A DNA stretch of 64,000 bases. It comes from Bacillus sp. ISL-34. GTDB lineage: Bacteria > Bacillota > Bacilli > Bacillales > DSM-1321. Below the pieces are notes generated by a model that did not search any database, was not told where the DNA came from, and was given only the letters and a program-made list of their open reading frames with translations. The stretch covers positions 1-64,000 of the forward strand of contig NZ_JAGGQJ010000025.1 in NCBI RefSeq assembly GCF_018613325.1. Reading direction: 5' to 3'. The translations under genes and the position numbers were made by a program. Position 1 is the first letter of the stretch; every line of letters begins with the position of its first letter. Of this stretch, positions 8,981 to 39,129 are shown one piece after another.

Positions 8981-9125
8981 AAATTATTCCTCCCATTAAA
9001 ACGATTCAATTTTTGGATGTTCAGCTTTTTCATTAATCCCCTATATTTTTCCTTCAAGAAGAATGGCTATTCATTAAAGGGGTTTGATAAGGTTTTACTA
9101 TACTTTTCATTATCTTGAATTAATA

Positions 9126-9143
9126 TATCTTTACTTAAAGATA
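9126..9143. promoter_or_regulatory. MhqR-like operator box 1
   Basis: TATCTTTACTTAAAGATA, 8-bp arms with a CT centre. As remembered, the B. subtilis MhqR box is TATCT-N8-AGATA; this site has exactly that shape and spacing. It lies upstream of the dioxygenase gene. Confidence 0.6.
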
Positions 9144-9192
9144 ATTTATCACGAATACCATTCACTGTCAACAACATTATCTCAAATTAATA

Positions 9193-9210
9193 TATCTCAA
9201 GATCGAAATA
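9193..9210. promoter_or_regulatory. MhqR-like operator box 2
   Basis: TATCT-N8-AAATA, one mismatch from the TATCT-N8-AGATA pattern, with an extra short repeat ATCT-CA-AGAT inside. It lies 67 bp from box 1, in a similar AATTAATATATCT context. Weaker than box 1. The rest of 8981-9439 shows no gene. Confidence 0.4.
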
Positions 9211-9439
9211 ATTACAGCAAAAACACACCACTGTCAATTTTCTTGATTCTAAATATCTTTCGAAAGAATTATGGAAACAGAATATCCATTCTAAAGCAAA
9301 TGCCATTCCAAGCTATAAGTCCGGCAAAGACGATCAATCACTTGTTTTGCAAAATTGAATCAGAGTTAAAGTGTTTCAATACGAAAGCCCCCCAGGTAAA
9401 AACAAAACCTTGACGTGAGGGCTATTTCGTTTTGGTTTC

Positions 9440-10363
9440 TTATTTTACATGACGCAATTCCCCTTGTTTTCCGGAGGAAGAGTTTGTGCCATCTTTTTCT
9501 TTTGACTTCTTAGAAGAAAGGTAAACTCCTGCGAAAATAATCAGCAGGCCAATAATTACATTAGGATTAATCGCTTCCCCAAGCAGAACATAGCCCCAAA
9601 CCATAGCGCTTGCAGGAATAAGGTATGTAACCGTTGCGGCTAATTCGGGGCTGCCATTTTTATTGATGTAGAAATAGATCAGCTGACCGAGCCCAGAGCC
9701 AAAGCACCCAAGACCGACTATGGAGAAAATTGTTAGCGGGTCCATCAACATCACTAGCTTAATCGGCCCTGCCATTAGCATCCCGATCAATCCGATAATG
9801 GCACCCGTGAGCAGCGTAAAGGTAGTAATGACCAATATGCTGGTATTGGAAAGAAATCTTTTCGTAAATTGGCCGGCAAAACCATAACAGGTGGACGCTA
9901 GCAGCATTGTCCCAATCCCTATGAATTCCTTGCCGAAAAGCTGACCGACTTGAAAATCCATCAAAACTAGAATTCCGAAAAAACCGATAAGAATGCCCAT
10001 CCATTGCCGGGCGGTTAAAACATAAGAAAAAATGATAAATCCGATGATCCCCGTCCAGATCGGAGTGGTTGCATTAAGAATCGATGCCGTGCTGCTGTTA
10101 ATCTCTGTTTCACTTAAAGCTATTAAACCCCATGCTAATCCGCAATTGAAGATTCCGACAACGACCAGCGCTTTCCACGGTAATTTCCAGTTGATTTCCC
10201 TGCGCCTCCACCATAAAATGGGAAGCAGAACAACAGCACCCGCCAAACAGCGGAGAAACACAATCCCCCAAATGCCCGCTGGCGGGAGCAGCCACTTCAT
10301 AAAAACAAACGATAACCCCCATATCAAACTAAGACCGATTAAAGCCCCGTATAATCGAAGCAT
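9440..10363 (-). CDS. EamA/DMT-family transporter
   Basis: 307 aa, ten hydrophobic segments in two EamA repeats of five. The first repeat carries LSLIWGLSFVFMKWLLP and the second ends in the lysine-rich tail SSKKSKEKDG. The family exports or imports small metabolites such as amino acids; the substrate cannot be told from sequence. No neighbour shares its strand within a clear operon: the E1 gene pair upstream ends at a strong terminator, and the dioxygenase downstream has its own regulatory region. Confidence 0.85.
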   Translation of the reverse strand: MLRLYGALIGLSLIWGLSFVFMKWLLPPAGIWGIVFLRCLAGAVVLLPILWWRRREINWKLPWKALVVVGIFNCGLAWGLIALSETEINSSTASILNATTPIWTGIIGFIIFSYVLTARQWMGILIGFFGILVLMDFQVGQLFGKEFIGIGTMLLASTCYGFAGQFTKRFLSNTSILVITTFTLLTGAIIGLIGMLMAGPIKLVMLMDPLTIFSIVGLGCFGSGLGQLIYFYINKNGSPELAATVTYLIPASAMVWGYVLLGEAINPNVIIGLLIIFAGVYLSSKKSKEKDGTNSSSGKQGELRHVK

Positions 10364-25969: not shown

Positions 25970-26085
25970 AAACAAAGAAAGTTATATTAAATTATCATTG
26001 AAGTTTGATTTTCTTAGGTGTTTGTTCACTCTAATGCTGATTTATCAGTTATTTAAGTACTCACTTAGAAATTTTAAAAACAAAA

Positions 26086-26117
26086 AAAGAAAGCACTTTA
26101 TTGCTAGCGCTTTCTTT
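26086..26117 (-). terminator. Rho-independent terminator of the enhancer-binding-protein gene
   Basis: AAAGAAAGC (26086-26094) pairs with GCTTTCTTT (26109-26117). On the minus strand a T-rich run follows. It insulates the sigma-54 promoter from read-through, leaving operon expression to the activator. A partial cre-like sequence (26102-26115) overlaps it. Confidence 0.75.
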
Positions 26118-26131
26118 TATAGTGGATTCAA

Positions 26132-26149
26132 TTTCTAATTTTTTAGAAA
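26132..26149. promoter_or_regulatory. Upstream activator site 1 (inverted repeat)
   Basis: TTTCTAA-TTTT-TTAGAAA, perfect 7-bp arms, ~167 bp upstream of the -24 element. One of three copies of the same 18-bp element between the activator gene and its inferred target. Confidence 0.7.
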
Positions 26150-26205
26150 AAATTATTACGAAGATTCTCAAATAAATTACTTATCCCCTAATTCTATAAC
26201 CTTGG

Positions 26206-26231
26206 TGGATTTCTAATTTTTTAGAAATCCA
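26206..26231. promoter_or_regulatory. Upstream activator site 2 (longest inverted repeat)
   Basis: Same core TTTCTAA-TTTT-TTAGAAA (26210-26227), here extended to perfect 11-bp arms starting TGGAT and ending ATCCA. ~240 bp upstream of the -24 element. Confidence 0.75.
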
Positions 26232-26239
26232 TGGATATT

Positions 26240-26257
26240 ATTCTATTTTTTTAGAAA
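26240..26257. promoter_or_regulatory. Upstream activator site 3
   Basis: Matches the 18-bp core at 16 positions. It starts 30 bp (about three helical turns) from site 2, so two activator dimers could bind on the same DNA face. It lies just past the activator stop codon. Confidence 0.6.
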
Positions 26258-26262
26258 TCACT

Positions 26263-27678
26263 TTAAATAATACGGTATTTTTTCATTTTATTATATAAGG
26301 TGGCCAAAGACACTCCTAGAGAATTTGCGGTTTTTTTTCTTCCTTCCATATCATTTCCGAACTTCCCCAAAATTTCTTGGATGAATTTTGATTCTGCTTC
26401 TTCCGTTATGTCCTTTAGTGTTTGACCGTTTGGTTTTAGAGTAGAATCTAAGCGATTCAATTCAAGCTTCATCATCACATCTGGTAAATGGTGGAACTTT
26501 ATTTCCATACCTTCTGCCATACAAGTTGCATAGTCGATCACATTTCTCAATTCTCGAACATTGCCAGGCCATTCATATGACCGTAAAAATTCTAAAGTTT
26601 GTTCGTCAATAGTGTACATAGAACCATCCCTAGCTGGTGGAGTTAATGACGAACGAAGCAATGAATGAACCAATTCAGGGATATCCTCTCTTCGTTCTCG
26701 AAGAGGTGCTATCTTTAAGCCTATAACATTAAGTCTATAAAACAAATCTCCGCGAAAATGATTTTTATTTACAAGCTGTTGTAAATCACGGTGTGTAGCG
26801 GCAATAATCCTGACATCAATATTTCGCTCTTCTGTTTCTCCTACCCTTCTGATCTTACTTTCTTGTAACACCCTGAGTAACTTAGCCTGAAGATCATATG
26901 ACATATCACCAATTTCATCCAAAAAGAGCGTACCCTGGTCTGCCATTTCAAATAAACCGATTTTACCGCCTTTTTTTGCATTGGTAAAGGCCCCATCTCC
27001 ATAACCGAATAACTCACTTTCTAATAAAGAAGGTGGAATAGACGCACAATTAACTGGAATAAAAGGCTTATTACCACGATGGCTTTTATGATGAATAGCC
27101 TGTGCGAATAATTCTTTTCCTGTCCCACTCTCGCCGATAATTAAAATTGGAAAGTTGGAATCGGATACCCGTTTTGCTACATACACTACGTCCTTCAACC
27201 CGCCATCTTTTCCAATAATGTCATCAAAAGTGTATTTTACCTTATAAAGCGAATTCATCTGCTTTTTAAGCTGGCGGACTTTCTCGTTTTGTTTTTGAAG
27301 TTCAAGTGACAATTTATGAACTTCAGTTAAGCTTTTGCAGACGGACACAGCGCCAACAACCTGTTCATTTAGAATAATTGGAGCCATATCGACCACATAT
27401 TCCCGGTCTTTGGTCTTTCGGTAGACCCCAACACGACACTGACAATCTTTTAGTGTTTTTGTAAGTTGCGCTCCGGGCCGATATTTTACCAGTGGCTCCC
27501 CTATGATTTCAGCAGTAACACCAGTAATACGTGTATATTCAGGATTAATCATCCTTACATACCCATTATGATCAATCACTAAAACACCATCATTGATTGA
27601 CTCTATAATTGCTTTCCACCAGCCTATGCTATTTTCACTAATTGAAGCAGTGTTTTTATTATTTGATTGCTCTTTCAA
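26263..27678 (-). CDS. Sigma-54-dependent enhancer-binding protein with PAS domain
   Basis: 471 aa from a TTG at 27678 with AAAGGAG 8 nt upstream; a GTG at 27696 is an alternative with a weaker site. Order: PAS sensor (~20-120; DGVLVIDHNGYVRMINPEY), short coiled-coil linker, AAA+ domain (~155-390; Walker A GESGTGKE, Walker B LFLDEIGDM), C-terminal Fis-type helix-turn-helix (~430-471; GRKKTANSLGVSLATLYNKMKK). The sigma-54 contact loop reads GAFTNA in place of GAFTGA. The PAS domain has a CQC pair in the region KDCQCRVG. No phosphoacceptor domain, so it probably senses a ligand. It lies next to three repeats and a -24/-12 promoter, its clear target. Confidence 0.9.
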   Translation of the reverse strand: MKEQSNNKNTASISENSIGWWKAIIESINDGVLVIDHNGYVRMINPEYTRITGVTAEIIGEPLVKYRPGAQLTKTLKDCQCRVGVYRKTKDREYVVDMAPIILNEQVVGAVSVCKSLTEVHKLSLELQKQNEKVRQLKKQMNSLYKVKYTFDDIIGKDGGLKDVVYVAKRVSDSNFPILIIGESGTGKELFAQAIHHKSHRGNKPFIPVNCASIPPSLLESELFGYGDGAFTNAKKGGKIGLFEMADQGTLFLDEIGDMSYDLQAKLLRVLQESKIRRVGETEERNIDVRIIAATHRDLQQLVNKNHFRGDLFYRLNVIGLKIAPLRERREDIPELVHSLLRSSLTPPARDGSMYTIDEQTLEFLRSYEWPGNVRELRNVIDYATCMAEGMEIKFHHLPDVMMKLELNRLDSTLKPNGQTLKDITEEAESKFIQEILGKFGNDMEGRKKTANSLGVSLATLYNKMKKYRII

Positions 27679-27696
27679 GGAATTAACTCCTTTCAC

Positions 27697-28231
27697 CCTT
27701 ATAGTTCATATTTCAGCTTTTTTCGCCTGGATTTATTTCTTTAATTTTATCTCTAAACTTCTCATTCGTGGTAATTTCCTTTGTGGTTGTTATGTTTCGC
27801 TTGGCATGTCTGGAGAGGTTAGCCGTTGCAACGATTGACCATAATTAGGACATGGAAGTTGTGCGTCTACTTGTCATTGTGTGTAACCTTATTGACTACC
27901 TTTGTTTTCGTATCTTTTATCTTTGTGTACGAGTATGCATAAATAGGCGTTTAAGGACTTGACTTGGAGCCTCTGGGGGGACGATTTGTCTTGAAAGACT
28001 GAAGAAGCAGTTATTTCATCAGACGGCCAATCCTATCATAAAGTCCTATCAATATGTACGTTGAATATTATAGATTTACTGTAAATATTGTCTCAACTAA
28101 ATCAGCCATTTTTCTACCTTAAAACTACGTTGAACCCGGTGGTAAATCATATTATAGCTAATGGGGTTTTAATAGAATGTCTTGACTGGTGTTTTTAAAC
28201 GGTTCAAAACATCTCAATGATTTTAGAAGCG
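27697..28231. other. Intergenic region upstream of the enhancer-binding protein
   Basis: About 535 bp with no supported gene. It must contain the activator's own promoter; I see no strong sigma-A or sigma-54 match to name. Confidence 0.4.
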
Positions 28232-28278
28232 AAAATGACCTAAGCCTCTCTGATTCTTAGAAAGGCTTAGGTCATTTT
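28232..28278. terminator. Terminator hairpin after the GntR gene
   Basis: AAAATGACCTAAGCC (28232-28246) pairs over 15 bp with 28264-28278. It lies just past the gntR stop codon. A and T tracts at the stem ends allow action on both strands. Confidence 0.75.
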
Positions 28279-28288
28279 ATGTGCCAAA

Positions 28289-28996
28289 TCAATTCTTCCG
28301 TGACATTTTCATTGCGAATGAGTACATATCAGATCTGAATAATCCTTTGTAATACTCTACTAAATTACCATCTGAATCAAAAATCATCCGTTCTGTAATC
28401 AGCAAGCACATCGTTTCTGTTATCCCTAAATGTTCAGCATCTTCTTTAGTCGGAAAGCCGCAGGTTATGATTTGTTCCGCTTCACAAAAGTCAATGTTTA
28501 GATCACCTTCGAGTGCATCATACAATACGGTTGTACTTAAATCGAATTTCGTCAATTTTTTTCCTAGGTCCAAAGAATAATAATGCAATTCAATGGCTAT
28601 TGGGACATCCCCCTGTAACCGCAGCCTTTTAATATGGTAAGATTCATCTTCGAACCCATTAGCATCAGCTATATTTTCAGGTGTCATGACACGGCCATGA
28701 TCTAGTAGTTTAATACCCATGCTTTTAGTGGTTTCAGTGAAACTTATCATCTTTAGCCATTCTTGTACAGGTTTAAGGGAAACGAACGTTCCCTTTCCAT
28801 GCCTCTTCTCCAATATTCCCTCACGAACCAGGATGGATACGGCTTCCCGTACAGTACTCCTGCTGACAGAATACATATCCATGAGTTCCCTTTCACTAGG
28901 GATTTTGTCTTTATAATAACCTTCCAAAATCTGATTTTCCAATATGGTTTTCAATTGAGCATGTAAAGGGATTGGATTTTTAAAGTCTAACTCCAT
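28289..28996 (-). CDS. GntR/HutC-family regulator of the sulfonate/phosphonate locus
   Basis: 235 aa. Winged helix-turn-helix at residues ~10-75 (IPSERELMDMYSVSRSTVRE, then ILEKRHGKGTFV), followed by a UTRA effector domain (~95-230) as in HutC, PhnF and NagR. The same 20-bp operator is found at its own promoter, at the xsc promoter and at the APC permease promoter. It is therefore very likely the repressor of this locus and of itself. The UTRA ligand is probably an intermediate or substrate such as taurine, 2-aminoethylphosphonate or the aldehyde. It follows yeiH but is separated by a terminator and has its own promoter. Confidence 0.9.
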   Translation of the reverse strand: MELDFKNPIPLHAQLKTILENQILEGYYKDKIPSERELMDMYSVSRSTVREAVSILVREGILEKRHGKGTFVSLKPVQEWLKMISFTETTKSMGIKLLDHGRVMTPENIADANGFEDESYHIKRLRLQGDVPIAIELHYYSLDLGKKLTKFDLSTTVLYDALEGDLNIDFCEAEQIITCGFPTKEDAEHLGITETMCLLITERMIFDSDGNLVEYYKGLFRSDMYSFAMKMSRKN

Positions 28997-29020
28997 AAAA
29001 TTTCCTCCAAGCAGAAAAAG

Positions 29021-29040
29021 ACATCGTAATGTTCGTATCA
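29021..29040 (-). promoter_or_regulatory. GntR operator copy 1 (gntR promoter)
   Basis: On the minus strand TGATACGAACATTACGATGT, which fits the consensus TGRTAC-KR-ACRT-N4-AYGT shared by three promoters here. The ACAT-N4-ATGT part is an inverted repeat. It begins 8 nt after the -10 box and covers the transcription start: autoregulation. Confidence 0.75.
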
Positions 29041-29048
29041 GTTCTTAT

Positions 29049-29077
29049 ATTGTAAACCAAATAGTTATAATATTCAA
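29049..29077 (-). promoter_or_regulatory. Promoter of gntR
   Basis: Minus strand: -35 TTGAAT (29072-29077), 17-bp spacer, -10 TACAAT (29049-29054), followed by the shared operator. Confidence 0.65.
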
Positions 29078-29168
29078 ACATGCCAACACTTGATTTTTTC
29101 CTTAAATTAGGATTTCATCAATTTCCACTCGTTTATTTCCAAAAATATTTTTCTTCGATGAATAAAAA

Positions 29169-29196
29169 AGCCTGAATAAATATATATTCAGGGCTT
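29169..29196 (-). terminator. Rho-independent terminator of the yeiH end of the operon
   Basis: GCCCTGAATA-type stem on the minus strand (29185-29196 with 29169-29179), followed by six T. A further partial copy of the left arm lies at 29219-29230, so two overlapping hairpins are possible. Confidence 0.75.
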
Positions 29197-29263
29197 ATCC
29201 ATATGCATTACTCATCATATATTCAGGCTTACCTAACTGGGACAACAATGGAAAGCTTATATA

Positions 29264-30316
29264 TTAAACGATAAAGTACGAGATTATGGAAAGCAGCAAA
29301 GAGGTAATGGTCATGGCTAAAAGAGGACGCATGGCTTTTGTCCGCAGTGCCTGCAGGCTTACATTCAGTCCAAGACCAATCATGGACATTGTCAATATAA
29401 ATGTAGTGGTTTTGGAAATGCCATCCATTACGAGAGGAGACACCGTAATATAAGTTCCAAACACATAACTTCCTATTAGACTCATGATTATAAAACCAAC
29501 GAGGAACCATGGAAAATCAATTTTGGCATCATGGCCCATTTTCCCGGATGTGCGTTTTTTCATCCAATACATAAAAATGAAACATAATGGGATAAGTAAA
29601 AAGACACGGCCCAATTTTGCGAGGAGTGCAATCGCTAGCGCATCTTCACCAGCCGGTGCTCCTGCCAATGCAACATGGGCGATTTCATGAAGGCTGATCC
29701 CAGACCAGATTCCATAATCCAAAGCAGATAGCGGAAGGATCGGACGTAAAAGTGTATAAACAATGGAGAAAAGTGTTCCCATTAAAGCGATTATCCCAAC
29801 GCCTATGGCTGTATCTTCTTCCTTCGCTTTCACGATTGGAGATATGGCCGCGATGGCTGCTGCACCGCATATCCCGGTTCCTACAGCAAGAAGAAGGGAA
29901 ATGGAAGCATCTGCCTTTAACCACTTTGCAATCAGGACCATCACGACTATGGCAAATGTTACTGTTCCTATGTCACGTACCAACAATGGCAGTCCTTGAT
30001 TGAAAATCACATCGATATTTAATTTCAACCCGTATAAAATAATGGCAAAACGCAAAAGTTTTTTTGCGGAAAATTCAATTCCCGTCCGGAACTTTTCAGG
30101 ATATCCCGCAATTTGACGATAAATCACGGCAATGATGATCGAGCATGCAAGAGGACCGATTCGATTGAATCCTGATATCTTGGACAGCCCCAAGCCTAAG
30201 AGGGCAATAAAAAAGGTGAAAGCGATACCGCTCAGCCACAAAAGCACCTTATTTTGTAACGGTTTTTGCTGCACCTGAGGTGTTTCTTCCAGTGGCTCAT
30301 ATTTTTCTAATTCCAT
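29264..30316 (-). CDS. YeiH/UPF0324-family membrane protein, putative sulfite/sulfate exporter
   Basis: 350 aa with ~10-11 membrane segments. LPLSALDYGIWSGISLHEIAHVALAGAPAG is the family's signature helix pair (given in part: HEIAHVALAGAP), and GTGICGAAAIAAISPI precedes it. AGGGGGAAGG precedes the ATG. It is the last gene of xsc-aminotransferase-PIG-L-yeiH. Sulfoacetaldehyde acetyltransferase makes sulfite, which is toxic, so an exporter here fits. The annotation as sulfate exporter in this family is largely from such gene context and not from transport assays that I can cite. Confidence 0.82.
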   Translation of the reverse strand: MELEKYEPLEETPQVQQKPLQNKVLLWLSGIAFTFFIALLGLGLSKISGFNRIGPLACSIIIAVIYRQIAGYPEKFRTGIEFSAKKLLRFAIILYGLKLNIDVIFNQGLPLLVRDIGTVTFAIVVMVLIAKWLKADASISLLLAVGTGICGAAAIAAISPIVKAKEEDTAIGVGIIALMGTLFSIVYTLLRPILPLSALDYGIWSGISLHEIAHVALAGAPAGEDALAIALLAKLGRVFLLIPLCFIFMYWMKKRTSGKMGHDAKIDFPWFLVGFIIMSLIGSYVFGTYITVSPLVMDGISKTTTFILTMSMIGLGLNVSLQALRTKAMRPLLAMTITSLLLSIISYFIV

Positions 30317-30361
30317 ACATTCCTTCCCCCTTTCCAGACAAACTTAAGCCCAAACTGCGTA

Positions 30362-31111
30362 TCATCCCATCCTTTCAATCGTTTGAAAAAAATCGGTTTC
30401 TTCTATATTAGTAGGTGTATTCCCTTTGATAAAATACTCGGATTCCTTTAAAAAAGGCAAGTTTGGATTTTGATTCCCCCACAATTCAGGAACAGCCAGA
30501 GTCTGGGAGCGATGGGACCTTAAGGCACGGATCTTTTTCTGTAAAGTCCCTGCTATATTCACTTCTGTGATTCTGCTCAGCCCGTTTTCCTTTAACCATT
30601 CATCATAAAAGGCATGCCAAAGGACAAAGTACAGACTATGAACCTCAAAAGCTGGAAACATTGGATCTGGAGAAAAATCGGGATCACCGGATTTTAGAAA
30701 AGCAAATTCGGCAGCACGGCCAATCGCACAATGGTCTGGATGCCCCCCATATTTCTTATGGAATGTTACTAGTGCATCCGGTTGAACTTCACGAATCACC
30801 TTTACAATTCTCTCCGCCAATAAATCGAAGTCCTCAAATTCAATCGTTTTATCCCTTACGTTTAAAAATCGCAGGTCTCTGACCCCCAATTCTTCACAAG
30901 CGTTTTTTAACTCCTTCACTCTTAGTCCAGGCAATGCCTCCCTTGTTGTAAGAATGGGATTTCCCATGCGCCGGCCCATTTCGCCTTTTGTCGCACATAG
31001 TAAAGTTATATGAACACCTCGCTCAGACATTTTAGCAATGGTTCCGCCACACAGGAAAGTCTCATCATCGGGATGTGCTAGAACCGCCAATAACCTTTGT
31101 TGTGATTGCAT
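30362..31111 (-). CDS. PIG-L/LmbE-family deacetylase
   Basis: 249 aa. The zinc motif AHPDDE lies at residues 12-17 and the second metal site at GGHPDHCAIG (~121-130). These enzymes remove acetyl groups from N-acetylglucosamine conjugates, such as BshB in bacillithiol synthesis or bacillithiol-S-conjugate amidase. It is slightly longer than BshB1/BshB2 (~220-235 aa). GGAGG precedes the ATG. It sits between the aminotransferase and the exporter of the sulfonate operon, 45 bp before yeiH. It could deacetylate an N-acylated substrate such as N-acetyltaurine, or serve thiol metabolism; both are inference. Confidence 0.82.
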   Translation of the reverse strand: MQSQQRLLAVLAHPDDETFLCGGTIAKMSERGVHITLLCATKGEMGRRMGNPILTTREALPGLRVKELKNACEELGVRDLRFLNVRDKTIEFEDFDLLAERIVKVIREVQPDALVTFHKKYGGHPDHCAIGRAAEFAFLKSGDPDFSPDPMFPAFEVHSLYFVLWHAFYDEWLKENGLSRITEVNIAGTLQKKIRALRSHRSQTLAVPELWGNQNPNLPFLKESEYFIKGNTPTNIEETDFFQTIERMG

Positions 31112-31261
31112 ATTGCCTCCTAATTCGGATTCTCCAGTTTTTCCACACTGTCAGACCCAATATGAAAAAATGGACATGGATGTCAAATCGGCTAGACATA
31201 TCATGCCCATCTTCATTTTTCGTCTATAAATATAGCACCCTAAAGCTAATCTTCTTTTTGG

Positions 31262-32620
31262 TTAGCATAATTCATATAAAACGGATTTAACCGTTTCTAT
31301 GACAAAGCGTAAATCTTCAACGGTCGAAGATAAAGGCGGTGCAATGATCAATACATTTCCATATCCAGGAACAGTATCACCATTACGTCCGATGATAAGA
31401 CCCTTTTCCTTGCATGCCCCGATTATTTTACCCATGAACTCATCGGAAACAGGCGCTTTTTTCTTTTTATCTTCCACTAATTCAATGCCATATAAAAACC
31501 CAACTCCCCGAACTTCCCCTACTTTATCCAGGGCTGTCAATTCAAATAGCTCACTTAGTGTCGATTCACTAAGATCAGATACCCGCTGAACGATTTTTTC
31601 ATTTTCCAAGATTTCAATGTTCTTTAGGGCAACGGCGCAAGATGCAGGGTGGCCTCCATATGTTGACACATGCCTGAAATGATTTAAATTTCCGTTCTCT
31701 TTGAATTTCTCATAAATCCTGGAATTCACTGCCGTTGCTCCAAGTGGAAGATAACCGCTGGTCAAACCCTTTGCCATTGTTACAATATCCGGTTGAACTC
31801 CATCGGAGTGCATGAACCCAAACATTTTTCCGGTTCTTCCAAAACCTGAAACGACTTCATCCACAATTAAAAGAACATCATGCTTCTTACAGATTTCCGA
31901 AACCCTCGTTAAGTATTCTTTCGAAGGAATAAGGACCCCGCCGCCAGAGATGAATGGTTCAAGAATAACACCGGCTACCGTTTCAGCCCCTTCAAAGTTA
32001 ATGACCTGATCGATATATTCAGCTGCAAGCAAATCGGAGTTTTCAACGTTTTCCCCAAACGGGCTGCGATAACTGTATGGCGGTGGCACATGCAGGAAAC
32101 CTGGAACCGCCGGATCATATTTCACTCTCCGATTTGCCTGTGCGGTTGCGCTTAGCGCGCCAAAAGTATTGCCATGATAAGCTCTGTACCTAGAGATGAA
32201 TTTGTATTTACCCTGATTGCCATTTTGGGAATGATATTGCCTGGCTATTTTAAAAGCTGTCTCATTCGCCTCAGAGCCGCTGTTCGTAAAAAACGTTGTA
32301 TAGGAGCCCTTTAAATGCTCACTTATTTTTGCAGATAATTCAATTGCCGGCTTATGACTCAATGTTAATGGGAAGTAAGATAAGTTAATCATTTGTTCAT
32401 ATGCTGCCTGGGCGATCTCTTTTCGTCCGTGACCCAGGTTCAAGCACCATAAACCGGAAACCCCATCTAAATATTTATCACCTTTAGTATCCGTGAACCA
32501 TGAGCCGGATCCTTCTGTAGCCATCATGGGAGCATCCTTCTCATTATAGCGATGCATCGCATGCCATAAATGGTCTTTATCCATTTGAACAAGGTCTTTC
32601 GTTTCAGTTTCCATCTTCAC
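31262..32620 (-). CDS. Class III aminotransferase, taurine:pyruvate type
   Basis: 452 aa from a GTG at 32620 with GGGGG 8 nt upstream; the frame opens 33 nt earlier. PLP-fold type I, class III: substrate region LWCLNLGHGRKEIAQAAY, cofactor motif FFTNSGSEANETAFKIAR, Asp in LLIVDEVVSGFGRTGKMFG, and the Schiff-base lysine in TMAKGLTSGYLPLGA. It resembles taurine:pyruvate aminotransferase of Bilophila as I recall it. With xsc directly upstream, conversion of taurine to sulfoacetaldehyde is the best call. The same enzyme might also act on 2-aminoethylphosphonate, because phnX is present and no class V PhnW is. An omega-amino acid role cannot be excluded. Confidence 0.8.
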   Translation of the reverse strand: MKMETETKDLVQMDKDHLWHAMHRYNEKDAPMMATEGSGSWFTDTKGDKYLDGVSGLWCLNLGHGRKEIAQAAYEQMINLSYFPLTLSHKPAIELSAKISEHLKGSYTTFFTNSGSEANETAFKIARQYHSQNGNQGKYKFISRYRAYHGNTFGALSATAQANRRVKYDPAVPGFLHVPPPYSYRSPFGENVENSDLLAAEYIDQVINFEGAETVAGVILEPFISGGGVLIPSKEYLTRVSEICKKHDVLLIVDEVVSGFGRTGKMFGFMHSDGVQPDIVTMAKGLTSGYLPLGATAVNSRIYEKFKENGNLNHFRHVSTYGGHPASCAVALKNIEILENEKIVQRVSDLSESTLSELFELTALDKVGEVRGVGFLYGIELVEDKKKKAPVSDEFMGKIIGACKEKGLIIGRNGDTVPGYGNVLIIAPPLSSTVEDLRFVIETVKSVLYELC

Positions 32621-32700
32621 TTTTGAAACCCCCTTATTATTCATTGAATGCATTAAGTTAAGTTCCCATGCTGTTACAGATCTTCATGAGCAAATTGGTG

Positions 32701-32734
32701 AGGTGCGATGACCCAAATTCAAGTTATCGCACCT
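32701..32734. repeat. Hairpin between xsc and the aminotransferase gene
   Basis: AGGTGCGAT (32701-32709) pairs with ATCGCACCT (32726-32734). There is no T run on the minus strand, so it is more likely an RNA-processing or attenuating hairpin within the operon than a terminator. Confidence 0.5.
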
Positions 32735-32758
32735 GTCTTATCACTCTTTTTTACACCA

Positions 32759-34522
32759 TTATTTATCCCAGTTTTTATGATCTAAATGAGAATATTTTTC
32801 TAATAATCTAGTAGGCATTTTTAATGCATCTTTTCTAAATGGCGGAGCCAATTGTGTTCCATCGACTTGTATATCAATGACAGTCGGTTTGTTTGATTTT
32901 ATTGCTTCTTCAATGACAGCGCCTAACTCCTCAGGTTTTTCGACTCTAATACCAACAGCACCCATTGATCGGGCAACTTCTGCGAAGTCGGGATTTTGAA
33001 TATCAGCCCCTACAAAACGGTTATTATAAAAATCGACCTGATTCTTTTTCTCTGCACACCATGCATTATTATTGAAGACACATGCAATGACCGGTATGTT
33101 TTCTTCAACGGCCGTACTCACTTCATGTAAGCTCATGCCCCACGCGCCATCGCCAACAATGGCTAATACAGGCGTATTCGGCTCAGCTAACTTGGCACCA
33201 AGTGCGGATGGGTAAGCAAATCCCGTGTTCCCGAATGTAAGCGCAGCGATATGCCTGCGGCTCTGGTTGAACTTCAAGTAAGCGTTTGCAGTTGAAGATA
33301 CATTACCGATATCTGTAGTAACGATGGCATTTTCAGGCAACACTTTAGTCAATTCCAAAAGGGCTCGGCGCGGATTGATTGGCGTTCCATCAATCATCGC
33401 AAGTCTCACCAATTCTTCTTCCCATTTTTGTTTTTCATTCGTTACTTCGACCATCCGCTTTTTTTCTTGTTTTAGGTTAGGTTTACTAGCCTTCAACCGT
33501 TTCAAGATTTCATGGCTCGCTTCACGGGCGTCTCCGATGATCCCGACTTCCACAGGGTGCGTCCTCGCTATTTGCCTTGGGTTAATATCTATTTGGATGA
33601 TTTGCGCATCTTTAGGGAAATAATCAATGTCATAGCATGGTAACGTTCCAAATACCGATAATCTTGTACCGACCGCCAATATGACGTCCGCTTTCTTAAG
33701 TGTATTCATGGCAGCCTTTGAACCCATGTAACCGATTGGGCCGACTGACAATGGATGATCAGCAGGAAAGGCATCATTATGCATATAGGAGACAGCTACC
33801 GGAGCTGTTAAATATTCTGCAATATTCTTAATTTCCTCAATGCCATCTGAATCAACCGTTCCCCTACCGGAAATGATGACAGGATACTCAGCCTCAGCTA
33901 AAATTTCAGCCGCTCTATCCAAGGATGCAGAAGAACCGCAGCCCCTTTCATCTACGCGATATTGATGTGGTTGAAGTATTTGATCTTCCACTTCACCATA
34001 GAAGTAATCGCGGGGGATATCGAATAAAACCGGTCCCCTCTCGGCATAGGCAATCCGAAATGCTGTCCTGAGGCAATCAGCGACCCGGCCTGGGTGTGTC
34101 ACTCTAACCGTTTCTTTCGTGATTGCCTTGAAGATGGAAACCTGATCACATTCTTGAAAACCATCCCATCCAACCGTTGGTGTACCAGCTGAAGGTGATA
34201 TGACCACCATAGGAGTATGAGCTTGATTGGCCGCTGCAACAGAGGTGACCATATTAGTCATTCCAGGTCCGTTTTGCCCGATGACAACTCCAGCAACCCC
34301 GGAGACCCGACAATAGGCATCTTCCATATGTGCTGCACTTTGTTCATGGCGGACACCAATGAAACGAATGCCTGCAGTTGGCAATAAATCAAGCATATCC
34401 ATGAAAGCAGATCCCAAAATTCCCGAGATATGTTTAACTCCCTCGGCCACTAATGTTTCAACGATGGCTTCACTTGGTGTCATTTTAACTTTTGTACCTC
34501 TTAACATTTTTGTTTCGACCAT
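32759..34522 (-). CDS. xsc: Sulfoacetaldehyde acetyltransferase
   Basis: 587 aa thiamine-diphosphate enzyme of the acetolactate-synthase fold. The N-terminal part ([29 protein letters not shown] and [20 protein letters not shown], given here in part) and the cofactor site [12 protein letters not shown] ... NNNAWCAEK are characteristic of Xsc and differ from acetolactate synthase. Reaction: sulfoacetaldehyde plus phosphate gives acetyl phosphate plus sulfite. AAGGAG lies 8 nt before the ATG. A consensus promoter and the shared GntR operator precede it. Downstream in the same direction come the aminotransferase, PIG-L and exporter genes, so it leads the operon. Confidence 0.93.
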
Positions 34523-34558
34523 AGCACATTCTCCTTAATTATATTATTTCTGATAATG

Positions 34559-34578
34559 ACGTTGCGACGTCCGTACCA
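34559..34578 (-). promoter_or_regulatory. GntR operator copy 2 (xsc promoter)
   Basis: On the minus strand TGGTACGGACGTCGCAACGT. It contains the inverted repeat GACGT-N4-ACGTC. It begins exactly 12 nt after the -10 box, the same distance as at the permease promoter. Confidence 0.75.
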
Positions 34579-34590
34579 GTTATATGATGT

Positions 34591-34619
34591 ATAATACTAC
34601 CATTGGATGTAACAGTCAA
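34591..34619 (-). promoter_or_regulatory. Promoter of the xsc operon
   Basis: Minus strand: -35 TTGACT (34614-34619), 17-bp spacer, -10 TATTAT (34591-34596). Both hexamers and the spacer length are identical to those of the APC permease promoter. Confidence 0.75.
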
Positions 34620-34695
34620 TGAATAAATAGAATATTTCGAATTTATTTAAAATATTTGACCATTATAGTCACTAACTCATGTATTTGAATCTTCT

Positions 34696-35526
34696 TTAAC
34701 CAATAAATATATCCTTTTTTTCTGTCAATCTGTAGTTGATCCTATCGATGATCTCCAATAAATCACCAATTTCATCAATTACGAAATCGGCACCTGCATT
34801 CCAAAAACGATTTTCTGCATGTTTCATCCGTTTTTGCAGATCATATGGGTCCATTTCATTGATTTCTTCTTCTGAAAGGCCGATTTCACTGCCGCCTTTC
34901 AATACGGCAACAGTCCACATTCCCGCAGAAATGCCTTCTTTGATGTCACTGATCGTATCGCCGACTTTAACGATTTTGCTTAGTGGATACACTTGGAGAT
35001 TCATCGCCGTCTTAAAGCACATCCAAGGGGCAGGCCTTCCTGCAGGCACTTCGGTGGACGCAACGATGGAATCTGGTTGATAGCCCCATTTTTCCGCCTC
35101 TTCTTTAACAACATCAATCATTTCACGAGTATACCCTGTAGTCGAGCCGATTTTTATTCCTTGCTGCCTTAAACGGCTGACTAATTCAATTACGCCTGGT
35201 ATTGGCTTGGCATTCTCCTTGAGAACCTTAAAAAGCAAAGCCTCAAAGTCTTTATATAATGATTTTAAATCACTTTCGTCCGGTTCTTTCCCAAATTTAG
35301 CAATCCATAAATTGGAGATTCGTTTCATTTTCAGAAGTTCCATTATATGATCCATTTTCAATAAACCCATAGGTTCCCTTGCTTCCTTAATGGTAATATC
35401 TATCCCGCTAACCCTGAATATCTCGACAAATGCCTGGACTGGCGCAAAACAACCATAATCCACCGTCGTTCCTGCCCAATCAAATATCACTGCCTGAACC
35501 TCTTTGCATTCTTTTGCACTTTCCAA
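34696..35526 (-). CDS. phnX: Phosphonoacetaldehyde hydrolase (phosphonatase)
   Basis: 276 aa HAD-superfamily enzyme. Motif I is FDWAGTTVDYG with the nucleophilic Asp; the cap holds MGLLKMDHI with the Schiff-base lysine that defines PhnX; GSTTGYTREM and GDTISDIKEG complete the site. Reaction: phosphonoacetaldehyde to acetaldehyde plus phosphate, by C-P bond cleavage. The start is TTG with AAGGAGG ~9 nt upstream. It lies 170 bp upstream of xsc, which has its own promoter, and 45 bp after a lipoprotein gene. The aldehyde must come from a 2-aminoethylphosphonate aminotransferase; no PhnW gene is in the window. Confidence 0.93.
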   Translation of the reverse strand: MESAKECKEVQAVIFDWAGTTVDYGCFAPVQAFVEIFRVSGIDITIKEAREPMGLLKMDHIMELLKMKRISNLWIAKFGKEPDESDLKSLYKDFEALLFKVLKENAKPIPGVIELVSRLRQQGIKIGSTTGYTREMIDVVKEEAEKWGYQPDSIVASTEVPAGRPAPWMCFKTAMNLQVYPLSKIVKVGDTISDIKEGISAGMWTVAVLKGGSEIGLSEEEINEMDPYDLQKRMKHAENRFWNAGADFVIDEIGDLLEIIDRINYRLTEKKDIFIG

Positions 35527-35571
35527 TCTATGCTCCCCTCCTTATGGTGATAACCCGGGTATAAAGAGAAT

Positions 35572-36027
35572 TCATTTCACTTCTTCCAAAAATAACTGCA
35601 GATCTTCTTTAGTAGCTTCAGAGAGTCGTTTAATCTCTTCAAGGTCCTTATCCGGATTCCCGGACTCCCCAATTAATGGGTAAAGGTTTTTTTCAATCCG
35701 TTCATACCAATCGGGGTATTCATCTTCCACTTGCTTTTCTATCGAATCCCAAGTAGAACTGATCTCTATTCCCATTTCTTGTATTTTCCCTGAAGCCGCC
35801 CCTGTACTTATTTCTGATTCCAATCCTTTTATGGATTGAATCACATCGCCGACACCTTTTTTAATAACCTCTTCATTTTGGGTTTCACCCGTATTTGAAT
35901 CAGGATTTTCATTCATGACTGGACTTTTTTCTTGTTGAGCCTCGTCCGGTTCAGCTGAAATGTTGCAGCCCGACAGTATGGCACAAAGGACAACCCCATA
36001 AGTTAAAACACGGAAACCATTCAACAT
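35572..36027 (-). CDS. Small lipoprotein of unknown function
   Basis: 151 aa. Signal peptide with a lipobox ending in LSGC, so the mature protein starts at the Cys near residue 21. The rest is acidic and helical (EIKRLSEATKEDLQLFLEEV at the C-terminus) with no domain I know. AGGAGGGA precedes the ATG. It lies 45 bp upstream of phnX on the same strand and is probably co-transcribed with it. A role in binding phosphonate or sulfonate outside the membrane is conceivable but not shown. Confidence 0.7.
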   Translation of the reverse strand: MLNGFRVLTYGVVLCAILSGCNISAEPDEAQQEKSPVMNENPDSNTGETQNEEVIKKGVGDVIQSIKGLESEISTGAASGKIQEMGIEISSTWDSIEKQVEDEYPDWYERIEKNLYPLIGESGNPDKDLEEIKRLSEATKEDLQLFLEEVK

Positions 36028-36193
36028 AATCCCTCCTTCATGCTATAAAAGACAGATGTCACCAAGCACTTATTGGCACAACTCTCTTATTCTATGGGAA
36101 TCATATTCTAGCTGATTAGTGATTGAAGAATTTTGTCTGAGGAGTTCCATAGAAGTAAACGAAGCATTTCCTTAAAATGGTATAGAGCCAAAG

Positions 36194-37618
36194 CTATAAC
36201 TTTTCAGAATTAGGGGAACCAGAAACAATATTTAATTCATTCTCCATATACTTCGCTTTTTTTCGCCGAATGAAAAAGAATGAACAGATAACGATCAAGC
36301 TAAATAGCATGGTAAAGATAAACTGTGGACGCTGTGAATCGATAAAGGCCATTAATATTAACACGGAAATCATGGAAATTATGGTTGCATAAGTCAAATA
36401 CGGAAATAACCACATCTTGATCTTGAAAATTCCAGGATTCTCTTTCTCCATTCTCTTCCTTAATCGTAGATGGGAAACCGCTATGGCCAGATAAACAAGG
36501 ATTCCGACTCCACCTGAGGAATTCACTAAAAAGAAAAAGATTTTATCAGGTGAAACATAACTGAAAATGGTGCTGATAAAGGCAAATAAAGTAGAGCCTA
36601 CTACAGCAAATATAGGAACGCCGTTCTTGCTCACTTTTGAAAATACCTTTGGAGCGTCGCCCTTTTGTGCAAGTGAAAATAACATGCGTGAACTCGTATA
36701 TAATCCCGAATTCAAACAGGATAGCAATGCAATGAGAATCACTATATTCATGATCAGGGCAGCAGAAGGGATCCCCAGCATTTCAAGTACGGCAACAAAT
36801 GGACTTTTCAGCAAAGAAGCCGAATTCCAGGGTAATAGCGTCACTAGTATGGCGATGGACCCAATATAGAAAATCAGGATTCGCCAGACCACACTATTCA
36901 ATGCACTTCTAACTGACTTTACCGGATCACTGGTCTCACCCGCGGCAATCGCTGGAATCTCCACTCCAACAAATGCATGAAAAACAATGGCGACGCCAAC
37001 AAGCACAGAACTTAGCCCGTTCGGAATAAAACCGCCAAAATTCAAAAGATTGGAAGCACCAGGTGGTTTTATCGTTGGGATAAACCCTAATATCACTGCC
37101 ACACCCAGGCACAAAAATAGTATGATACTGATTATTTTAATGATTGAAAACCAGTATTCGAACTCACCAAACGATTTTACGGAAAAAATATTCGTCAGTT
37201 TCAATAGGATGATCAATGATAGACTTATAACCCAGACGGGAACGGAAGGAAGCCAGCTGTGTATGATTGCTGCTCCAGCTGTTGCTTCCAAAGCAATTAC
37301 GATAACCCAAAAGAACCAATATAACCAACCTGTTGTAAAACCGGCCCATTCACCTATCCCTTCTCTTGCATAAACGGCAAAAGATCCAGTATTGGGATTC
37401 ACTGTGGCCATTTCCCCAAGCATCCTCATGACTAAAACAACGATCAAGCCTGCCAAAACATATGATAATATCGCCCCGGGGCCCGTTTGACCAATAATGA
37501 TACCGCTTCCTACGAATAAACCAGCACCTATGACACCACTCAAAGATATCATCGTTAAATGTCTTTGTTTCAGACCTGGTTTCAGTTCTTCCTGTTGATG
37601 TTTCATACCCTCCACCAA
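36194..37618 (-). CDS. APC-superfamily amino acid permease (GabP-like), likely taurine/aminophosphonate importer
   Basis: 474 aa with 12 membrane segments. The first one carries MISLSGVIGAGLFVGSG, the APC substrate-binding motif, and TGSFAVYAREGIGEWAGF follows. It belongs to the GABA/aromatic amino acid permease branch. The start is uncertain: TTG at 37618, or ATG at 37606 with GGAGGG very close. Its promoter has the same hexamers, spacing and 20-bp operator as xsc, which places it in the GntR regulon. I infer that it imports taurine or another 2-carbon amino-sulfonate/phosphonate, in place of the usual TauABC or SsuABC transporter. Family call is sure; substrate is inference. Confidence 0.85.
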   Translation of the reverse strand: MVEGMKHQQEELKPGLKQRHLTMISLSGVIGAGLFVGSGIIIGQTGPGAILSYVLAGLIVVLVMRMLGEMATVNPNTGSFAVYAREGIGEWAGFTTGWLYWFFWVIVIALEATAGAAIIHSWLPSVPVWVISLSLIILLKLTNIFSVKSFGEFEYWFSIIKIISIILFLCLGVAVILGFIPTIKPPGASNLLNFGGFIPNGLSSVLVGVAIVFHAFVGVEIPAIAAGETSDPVKSVRSALNSVVWRILIFYIGSIAILVTLLPWNSASLLKSPFVAVLEMLGIPSAALIMNIVILIALLSCLNSGLYTSSRMLFSLAQKGDAPKVFSKVSKNGVPIFAVVGSTLFAFISTIFSYVSPDKIFFFLVNSSGGVGILVYLAIAVSHLRLRKRMEKENPGIFKIKMWLFPYLTYATIISMISVLILMAFIDSQRPQFIFTMLFSLIVICSFFFIRRKKAKYMENELNIVSGSPNSEKL

Positions 37619-37841
37619 CTTTCAATATTTTGGGGAATCAACTAACATAATTGCTACTTGAATGTAAAAACAAGGCTTTTTAGCTGCCTGTCCTTTACAC
37701 TTTCACAAAGATAGTGGGAACTTGGAAACATGGCATTTTAAAAAAACAACACAGGAGATGACGCTATGAACTTAAGATTCTATATCACTATTCCTCCTTC
37801 CTTAAGGCTATTTTGAAATTCGAAGCGGATATAACATCACT

Positions 37842-37861
37842 ACGTCATGATGTTAGTACCA
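37842..37861 (-). promoter_or_regulatory. GntR operator copy 3 (permease promoter)
   Basis: On the minus strand TGGTACTAACATCATGACGT. It matches the xsc copy at 14 of 20 positions and starts 12 nt after the -10 box. A longer inverted repeat AACATCA-N8-TGATGTT (37833-37854) overlaps it. Confidence 0.7.
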
Positions 37862-37873
37862 CTTTCTATGTGT

Positions 37874-37902
37874 ATAATACACTCTGATTTTTTTAAAGTC
37901 AA
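37874..37902 (-). promoter_or_regulatory. Promoter of the APC permease gene
   Basis: Minus strand: -35 TTGACT (37897-37902), 17-bp spacer, -10 TATTAT (37874-37879). It is ~255 bp upstream of the start codon, leaving a long leader in which I see no further structure that I can name. Confidence 0.7.
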
Positions 37903-37982
37903 TTCAAAAATCAGAATATTTAGATAACGAAATGATGATTTTTAAATACAACAAATGGTGTCCAGTTAGTCTGCAAATTGTT

Positions 37983-38624
37983 TCATTTTACTTTTTTGAC
38001 CTTGGAGGTTTCATCCAACACACCTTCCACTGCTGACTTTACGGCCTTCTGCTTCCTATCCAGCATTTTCTTTAAAAGGTATGAAAAAAGCAATGTAAAC
38101 GCAATTCCTTTAACAATCGATATATAACCATAAACAAGAAGGCCCAATATCAGTACGATAAGATTAATAATCCTTATTGTCGCTGCAATATCTATTTTTT
38201 CATTTTTATGATGTAGAATTAAGGCGATCACGTCAAAGCCAACAGTGGAGGCATTTGCTGTAATACATAAATAATATCCTATCGCTATCAATATCGACGA
38301 AATGATAATCACTAAAGCGATATTTATATCAAAATTAATATTCAATGAATAAAAGAAATTAAAAAAAACCATATAGCTAAGCGAACTTACAATCGACTTA
38401 AAAAAGTACTCTTTCCCTAGAAAAACTAAACAAATGATTAACAGTAAACCTGTAACGAAATTGGCTAGCATGGCAATGTTATAACCCGATAATGCATTCA
38501 ATAATAATGCCGAGCTGGTTACCCCGCCATTGATAATTTCATTCGGAACGATTAAATATGCATAGGCAAAGGTCATGGAAATGTTTCCTGCGATAATTTT
38601 CATTAAATCCTTCATAAACTTCAC
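37983..38624 (-). CDS. YitT-family membrane protein
   Basis: 213 aa with five or six membrane segments in the YitT/DUF161 pattern (PNEIINGGVTSSALLLNAL near the N-terminus, TANASTVGFDVIALILHHKN in the middle). The C-terminal cytosolic domain common in longer YitT proteins is missing; this is the short form with a lysine-rich tail. The start may be GTG at 38624 or ATG 9 nt later (GGTG eight nt upstream). Function of the family is unproven. No operon partner. Confidence 0.82.
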   Translation of the reverse strand: MKFMKDLMKIIAGNISMTFAYAYLIVPNEIINGGVTSSALLLNALSGYNIAMLANFVTGLLLIICLVFLGKEYFFKSIVSSLSYMVFFNFFYSLNINFDINIALVIIISSILIAIGYYLCITANASTVGFDVIALILHHKNEKIDIAATIRIINLIVLILGLLVYGYISIVKGIAFTLLFSYLLKKMLDRKQKAVKSAVEGVLDETSKVKKVK

Positions 38625-39129
38625 ACCATCCCATTCGATATTTTGATTATGCTTTCCCCCCTAAATATATATTTATACTTGAACCATACGATCCCCATTC
38701 ATCCCTTACTCCAATTTTTACGAACCTTTCTCCTTTCGATATTTTTGAATCTTTTTACGAAGAATGTTTTATTTTTGTTCAAGTGTTTACAATAATTCGC
38801 TAACCAGAATCCTCTCTCCTTCTAATAAATAAAATAAAACATCCCCCTTAAAACCTGAAGATGTCATGTTTACCATATAAACATTTAAGCAATGAAGATT
38901 TTTTGTACAACTTATGTAACTTATGATTACCTTGAAACTTTGATTTACCTGAATGAATATGACATCCCACAGGGTAGTACAAGGAAAAAGCATCTTATAA
39001 TGCTCGCTTCAATAGACTTAGTCCGAGATTAAAAAACCTGACAAAATAAATAAGAAAAGCATTTATGTAAGAAGGAAACGCAAACGCAAGTCCCCTAATT
39101 ATTCCCATCAAGTATTATATCGCAATAAA
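38625..39129. other. Intergenic region between yitT-like gene and tat operon
   Basis: About 505 bp, AT-rich. One minus-strand open frame of 68 codons (38787-38993) has no ribosome site or recognisable product. I see no other feature apart from the terminator at its left... side of the tat operon given next. Confidence 0.4.

Follow-up and report, generated by a model that had tools for sequence, protein, structure and literature searches.

A shared operator at three promoters suggests a HutC-type regulator of taurine dissimilation in Peribacillus and related bacteria

We analyzed a stretch of 64,000 nucleotides from Bacillus sp. ISL-34 (contig NZ_JAGGQJ010000025.1, positions 1 to 64,000), hereafter the window, in which genes for a GntR/UTRA regulator of the HutC type, sulfoacetaldehyde acetyltransferase (Xsc) and a GabP-like APC permease are located close to each other. 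The promoters of gntR, xsc and the permease gene carry one and the same operator, which holds a fixed position, is conserved in relatives and is inherited together with the regulator. We consider it likely that the regulator is an autoregulated repressor of taurine dissimilation that acts at these three promoters and is released by an effector, and that the permease imports taurine.

The operator was originally predicted as the 20-bp pattern TGRTAC-KR-ACRT-N4-AYGT, composed from the three sites of the window themselves. All three sites are present on the minus strand exactly where they had been placed, and the description of the xsc and permease promoters as having identical hexamers (TTGACT and TATTAT, 17 bp apart), with the operator 12 nt after the -10 box, was confirmed. 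The operators and promoters are:

29021..29040, minus strand: operator at gntR, TGATACGAACATTACGATGT, an exact match to the pattern
34559..34578, minus strand: operator at xsc, TGGTACGGACGTCGCAACGT, with an imperfect dyad that extends to about 34551
37842..37861, minus strand: operator at the APC permease gene, TGGTACTAACATCATGACGT, an exact match to the pattern
29049..29077, minus strand: probable gntR promoter, TTGAAT-17-TACAAT (9 of 12 consensus positions), with the operator 8 nt downstream
34591..34619, minus strand: xsc promoter, TTGACT-17-TATTAT, with the operator starting 12 nt past the -10 box
37874..37902, minus strand: permease promoter, TTGACT-17-TATTAT, with the operator starting 12 nt past the -10 box

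The gntR copy had been claimed to overlap its own start; its position just past a fair -10 box (TACAAT) agrees with this, and the operator would overlap the likely gntR start site. At xsc, the pattern scan also detected a one-mismatch site on the plus strand, shifted by 8 bp. The promoter scan gave a total no higher than in shuffled sequences (28 sites versus 26.3), and the promoter boxes therefore carry weight only through their conservation.

A search of the whole genome (5,380,523 bases), as proposed with the original prediction, recovered exact matches to the 20-mer at these three promoters only, as compared to approximately 0.10 matches expected from base composition and none for the reversed pattern. 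Two one-mismatch matches elsewhere in the same genome, C16:342003 (within an open reading frame, ORF) and C30:248220, are surrounded by ORFs unlike the pathway proteins. Since the pattern had been written from the window sites, other genomes constitute the independent test. The family was represented by 43 genomes. Exact 20-mers numbered 65 in the 22 genomes that have an intact GntR and one, located within an ORF, in the remaining 21; the reversed pattern matched exactly twice in all 43. Two of the 65 matches are found away from the three promoters, ahead of Amidohydro_3 genes (G008 and G041). A looser pattern, TGRTACKRACRWYNNNAYR, was scanned against the 36 Peribacillus genomes and gave 74 matches in the 22 genomes with GntR and one in the 14 others, with 32 reversed matches in all 36. 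This pattern has a real background, and lone extra matches (such as those in G011, G017, G021 and G030) are therefore not claimed.

Orthologs of GntR, Xsc and the permease, the latter defined by an identity of 88% or more, are present together in the same 22 of the 36 Peribacillus genomes, and none of them is intact in the other 14 (Fisher p 3e-10, uncorrected for kinship). The permease of G015 is broken by a stop. One family genome, G038, has a broken GntR remnant and contains no Xsc, permease ortholog or operator sites. The permease operator is exact in 19 of the 22 orthologs and differs by one mismatch in three (TGGTCC in G008, G027 and G028). Other GabP-like permeases, represented by eight fetched loci (L087-L094, 1.5 kb flanks), showed the exact core in none and a one-mismatch 12-mer in one. 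The spacer between the -35 and -10 boxes is 17 bp in all 22 permease promoters, with the operator 12 nt downstream in 18 (range 9-13), and the same spacings, again with the operator 12 nt downstream, were observed for the xsc promoters of all 14 distinct Peribacillus genomes examined. In alignments of 9-10 genomes (9 Peribacillus for the gntR promoter), the operator stands out as a nearly invariant island amid drifting flanks. Loss of the motif from the same promoters in relatives, which would have counted against the original prediction, was thus not observed. The phosphonate part is optional in Peribacillus, since phnX is absent from 3 of the 11 mapped loci of relatives and these retain xsc and the permease gene.

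The association extends beyond the genus. An order-wide sample of 397 genomes was analyzed for Xsc by the curated cut-off and for GntR at E 1e-40 or better, with seven candidates scored per genome. Xsc was identified in 16 genomes, GntR in 28 and both in 15 (p 1e-18), and a GntR relative is encoded within 5 kb of xsc in all 16 Xsc genomes. In the sixteenth of these, G101, xsc is directly flanked by a gene for a 43% GntR on the upstream side and one for an APC permease on the downstream side. Ten of the Xsc genomes are not Peribacillus; the exact core, TGRTACKRACRW, is found by gntR, xsc, tpa or ald in six of them, a one-mismatch core in two (G324 and G309) and none in two. We also analyzed 43 loci of GntR relatives (L199-L241, 37-99% identity, four from Peribacillus), many of them from genomes shared with the other sets and hence not independent. 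The exact core was present in 24 of these loci, at 39 sites in 818 kb (31 outside Peribacillus, two inside ORFs), as compared to one site for the reversed core; 37 loci of distant GntRs (651 kb) had no core site versus five reversed ones. A weight matrix was run on 30 selected loci, including L213 and L220, which had supplied training sites. Sites of at least 19.5 bits were detected in 17 loci. The reversed matrix reached at most 19.3 bits in the same 30, and no score in the 37 distant loci exceeded 15.4. Other Bacilli and two Desulfotomaculum-type genomes also have the core, next to GntR relatives that are about 43-61% identical; the two carriers outside Bacilli are Desulfocucumis palustris (L218) and a Desulfotomaculum metagenome-assembled genome (L222).

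Positions that were unused for site selection are also conserved, namely AAC ahead of the core, C/T at +12, A at +16 (48 of 53 distinct operators) and C/T at +17. GTACKRAC is present in 49 of the 53, and the rest, including the Peribacillus gntR sites, have ATAC for GTAC. The right side of the original 20-mer was stricter than the family consensus. GT and AC are described as mostly 4 nt apart in HutC sites (PMC4494728); the operators contain such a GT-N4-AC box and look like two abutting boxes of this kind in an imperfect dyad of 20-28 bp. An operator with a single dyad was rejected: dyad sums of 19 and 27 obtained near-equal support (0.433 and 0.427), followed by 11 and 35, which suggests that repeated GT/AC pairs fit better than one clear palindrome. 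The regulator has the N-terminal GntR winged helix and C-terminal UTRA domain of the HutC subfamily of GntR. The closest solved structures are NagR/YvoA, which aligns over residues 2-233, and DasR, which aligns from residue 30 on.

The genes on the minus strand are read as three transcription units, each headed by an operator: gntR; xsc-tpa-pigL-yeiH; and permease(-lipoprotein-phnX). Their features are:

28289..28996, minus strand: GntR/UTRA (HutC-type) regulator, 235 aa; Pfam PF00392 GntR 62 bits (cut-off 27), PF07702 UTRA 102.2 bits (cut-off 23.8)
29171..29192, minus strand: terminator-like hairpin and T run after yeiH, from the terminator scan
29264..30316, minus strand: YeiH/PF03601 family exporter; PF03601 262.6 bits, TIGR00698 137.9 bits (under the cut-off of 232.6)
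30362..31111, minus strand: PIG-L deacetylase, BshB2-like; TIGR04000 177.8 bits (under the cut-off of 195.25), PF02585
31262..32653, minus strand: class-III aminotransferase; PRK07678 subfamily 687.7 bits (cut-off 488), a model that names no substrate
32759..34522, minus strand: xsc, sulfoacetaldehyde acetyltransferase; TIGR03457 847.7 bits (cut-off 676.4)
34696..35526, minus strand: phnX, phosphonoacetaldehyde hydrolase; TIGR01422 357.3 bits (cut-off 220)
35572..36027, minus strand: small putative lipoprotein between permease and phnX; lipobox-like LSGC near the start, spotted by eye, no Pfam match
36194..37618, minus strand: APC permease, GabP-like; PF00324 415.6 bits, TIGR01773 GABAperm 630.5 bits (under the cut-off of 678.1)

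Xsc exceeds its curated cut-off, as the Tpa-Xsc pathway of taurine dissimilation requires. The aminotransferase is the probable taurine:pyruvate aminotransferase (Tpa), with the substrate assigned from the neighbouring genes, and the YeiH/PF03601 protein is a probable sulfite or sulfate exporter. The hairpin at 29171..29192 probably ends the xsc operon ahead of gntR; the scan as a whole called 8 terminator-like sites versus 8.4 expected in shuffles. It called none between the permease gene and phnX, and transcription may read through from the one to the other. The real start of the permease is probably the ATG at 37606, and its leader is long, about 230-380 nt. A riboswitch or other cis-acting RNA in this leader was considered and dropped. 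An Rfam scan of positions 26000-39000 at E up to 1 gave a single match, to SECIS_5 upstream of gntR, which at 27.4 bits stays under its cut-off of 50, and the leaders align poorly between clades except for the operator and the start region. A short leader frame, GTG-ATA-TAG, after a strong ribosome site was also discarded because it is not retained in the more distant aligned species.

In the mechanism that we propose, the GntR/UTRA repressor would, without effector, occupy the operator just past the -10 box and block gntR, xsc-tpa-pigL-yeiH and permease(-lipoprotein-phnX), and it would release the operator in response to taurine or one of the products formed from it. The APC permease would then bring in taurine, possibly also 2-aminoethylphosphonate, Tpa would convert taurine to sulfoacetaldehyde, Xsc would split the latter into acetyl phosphate and sulfite, and YeiH would export the sulfite. 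Repression is the natural reading, since transcription would be blocked at initiation or in early elongation by a protein bound 12 nt past the -10 box. The original prediction of a HutC-type repressor of itself, the degradation operon and an importer thus stands with regard to the GntR/UTRA class and the operator at all three promoters, while the repression is what we infer from operator position.

Several results weigh against this reading. With up to two mismatches allowed, the 20-mer is no more frequent in the genome than the reversed pattern (50 matches versus 63), so that only near-exact matches are informative. No convincing operator site accompanies the second GntR copies of Peribacillus. 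In the order-wide sample, Xsc over the cut-off is missing from 13 of the 28 genomes with GntR, and the regulator is therefore not tied to Xsc alone; G101 and G370 have no recognisable core near gntR, xsc, tpa or ald. Of the 43 loci of GntR relatives, 19 are without an exact core, of which 11 have a diverged site of at least 19.5 bits. The scores do not single out a substrate for the permease, since both the permease and a paralog in the same genome miss the cut-off for gamma-aminobutyrate (GABA) transport, and both binding and expression are predictions from sequence.

The lack of enrichment at two mismatches, and the origin of the pattern, which was derived from the three sites themselves, would be in line with a chance or compositional match. 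We rejected this explanation, to which we assign virtually no probability, based on the reversed-pattern counts, the distant-GntR loci, the conservation in alignments and the co-occurrence with the regulator. Activation, or a dual mode of regulation, in place of repression is improbable. The known taurine regulator TauR activates, and a gntR site near its own start fits autorepression under either model. However, all 22 permease and 14 xsc promoters examined in Peribacillus have the operator downstream of a good -10 box, in a blocking position, and the HutC relative NagR is a repressor (PMC4333415).

With repression at the three promoters as the preferred reading, the substrate of the permease has to be considered. 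The permease probably imports taurine and perhaps also 2-aminoethylphosphonate, as judged from gene context. It always co-occurs with Xsc in the genus and is kept where phnX is absent, and GabP is reported to take up homotaurine (PMC5320631). The absence of a TauABC- or SsuABC-type importer had been noted for the window; for TauA this extends to the whole genome, in which no protein exceeded the curated cut-off (eight weak matches, best 97.2 versus 304.25 bits), and an SsuABC-type or other sulfonate ABC importer may still be present. An attempt to separate the permease from GabP by NCBIfam score failed, as both the permease (630.5 bits) and its 64% paralog in the same genome (647.4 bits) fall under the TIGR01773 cut-off of 678.1. 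In relatives, the operator precedes ald, tpa, xsc and gntR as well as transporters of four families (APC, SSS, GltS-like and MFS). These include other APC permeases, TIGR00909/BcaP-like, in L128, L132, L136 and L221, SSS symporters in L221 and L223, GltS-like transporters in L131 and L230, and an MFS protein in L218. Importers that vary under a constant operator are expected if they carry the regulon substrate.

This shift of transporter family under a retained operator, together with the recurrence of GabP in TauR regulons, argues against a permease whose role is export of the alanine that Tpa forms, or uptake of GABA or beta-alanine, in place of taurine import. Such a function is doubtful but conceivable: the protein is GabP-like, the window operon has no alanine dehydrogenase (Ald), which L148 and L201 have, and a PanD-like gene under the operator in L131 and L223 suggests that beta-alanine may matter in some lineages. 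As to alanine export, L148 and L201/L150 have Ald, yet keep the permease and its site. We regard it as unlikely that the permease mainly imports 2-aminoethylphosphonate, with the sulfonate genes sharing the regulator because the two molecules look alike. In the window, phnX follows the permease gene in the same direction and within its unit, and in Scopulibacillus (L220) a 53% GabP-like permease adjoins two phnX genes, a class-V aminotransferase gene and a GntR with operator, with no xsc in 20 kb. Against this, 3 of the 11 mapped Peribacillus loci keep permease and xsc without phnX, and each of the 22 genomes with the permease also has Xsc.

Amidohydro_3 hydrolases, which we take to be the kind of protein in COG1574, are encoded at 11 loci from 10 genomes of the family. 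The operator is present as an exact core in five, with one mismatch in three and not at all in three, one of which is from a genome without GntR. The genes with an exact core upstream are L141 9279-11174, L152 8116-10015, L161, L162 and L168, all from Peribacillus. The operator-linked hydrolases are likely regulon members and might act as N-acyltaurine hydrolases, possibly releasing taurine from N-acyl conjugates. Similar hydrolases are paired with SSS symporters near xsc in L122, L203 and L210.

Other genes were observed near the regulator or the operator. A sigma-54-dependent regulator with a PAS domain (26263-27696, minus strand; best NCBIfam match PrdR, under cut-off) is encoded directly downstream of gntR, and such a regulator also adjoins gntR in L140, L142 and L145. 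The BshB2-like PIG-L deacetylase gene of the xsc operon is absent or reduced in L148-L150, L155 and L156. A PanD-like gene (aspartate 1-decarboxylase, over the cut-off) is located directly under the operator in L131 (7599-8074) and L223 (15268-15745), in the latter divergent from a pair of SSS symporter and Amidohydro_3 genes; its product might make beta-alanine, or taurine from cysteate. L223 also has an Nramp-family gene (NF037982, over the cut-off; 8437-9814) with an exact core operator 97 nt upstream of it. GntRs of the same family adjoin an iron alcohol dehydrogenase and a thiamine pyrophosphate (TPP) enzyme that is about 30% like Xsc in L124, L219, L226, L231, L233 and L236. The TPP enzyme was profiled in L124 and compared by BLAST in the other five; in L126, L127, L129 and L138 the assignment is by layout only. 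Most of these loci have an exact or diverged operator at gntR, and they represent a possible novel route for a sulfonate or phosphonate.

A cluster resembling a microcompartment was found in Peribacillus G027 (L143 3838-9832), with a similar one in L144 and a broken-up one in L147. It encodes PhnX and a second GntR (91%), two BMC-domain proteins and one of the EutN/CcmL type, as well as an acylating aldehyde dehydrogenase (TIGR02518) and a PduL-type phosphotransacylase, both over the cut-off. In Scopulibacillus darangshiensis (L220 152-10681), two PhnX, BMC and EutN/CcmL proteins, the class-V aminotransferase and the GabP-like permease are encoded together, and the GntR (50%) has its operator at 9858. 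Such clusters may represent a 2-aminoethylphosphonate metabolosome. A search of an open-access library gave no paper on a PhnX-bearing microcompartment, and a term search of the main text of one microcompartment catalogue (PMC8217296) gave no word starting with "phosphon".

A broader hypothesis, which is speculative and at present not probable, is that one HutC-type family governs a joint regulon for C2-aminosulfonates and C2-aminophosphonates in Bacilli and Desulfotomaculum-type bacteria. Its members would respond to a signal that the breakdown of taurine and that of 2-aminoethylphosphonate have in common, both compounds would enter through GabP-like APC permeases, Amidohydro_3 hydrolases of the regulon would act on N-acyl conjugates to release taurine (or 2-aminoethylphosphonate), and some species would have, under the same control, a PhnX-loaded microcompartment to trap the acetaldehyde formed from phosphonoacetaldehyde.

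With regard to novelty, no described system of this build had been known to the original prediction. This holds in part: no HutC-type taurine regulator or operator of this kind was found in the titles and starts of abstracts of an open-access library, whereas a GabP permease has already been predicted to belong to the taurine regulons that TauR, a MocR-type activator, controls in Burkholderia, Comamonadaceae and Actinobacteria (PMC5320631). The HutC-type regulator and its operator thus look new, and GabP in taurine regulons does not. The operator in Peribacillus and related bacteria suggests how taurine is taken up and used, and it is a usable search tag for regulon members that already points to four transporter families and Amidohydro_3 as taurine-linked.

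Among known HutC-type repressors, NagR/YvoA of Bacillus subtilis (PMC4333415) and DasR share the domain build, a near full-length alignment and the spacing of GT and AC by 4 nt; they differ in having amino-sugar effectors and dre sites described as 15-mers, as compared to two abutting boxes over 20-28 bp here. PhnF and PhnR are also HutC-type regulators, of phosphonate genes, but the window GntR scores only 81.6 and 63.7 bits against the respective NCBIfam cut-offs of 156.8 and 296.75. AepP of Pseudomonas putida is likewise a secondary transporter for a C2 amino-phosphonate, but is described as a major-facilitator protein related to GlpT (PMC8316502), whereas the window permease belongs to the APC family. 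The TauR regulons of Proteobacteria and Rhodococcus contain tpa, xsc and genes for sulfite exporters; in certain lineages they also include a GabP permease and COG1574 proteins (PMC5320631). TauR itself is an activator with an aminotransferase-like sensor that binds CTGGACYTAA repeats (PMC5320631), whereas the 235-aa regulator of the window consists of GntR and UTRA only, without such a sensor domain, and the operator is about AACTGGTACGRACRTYNNNAY. Thus, for the regulation of taurine genes, these Bacilli appear to use a sensor unrelated to TauR, with an operator of its own.

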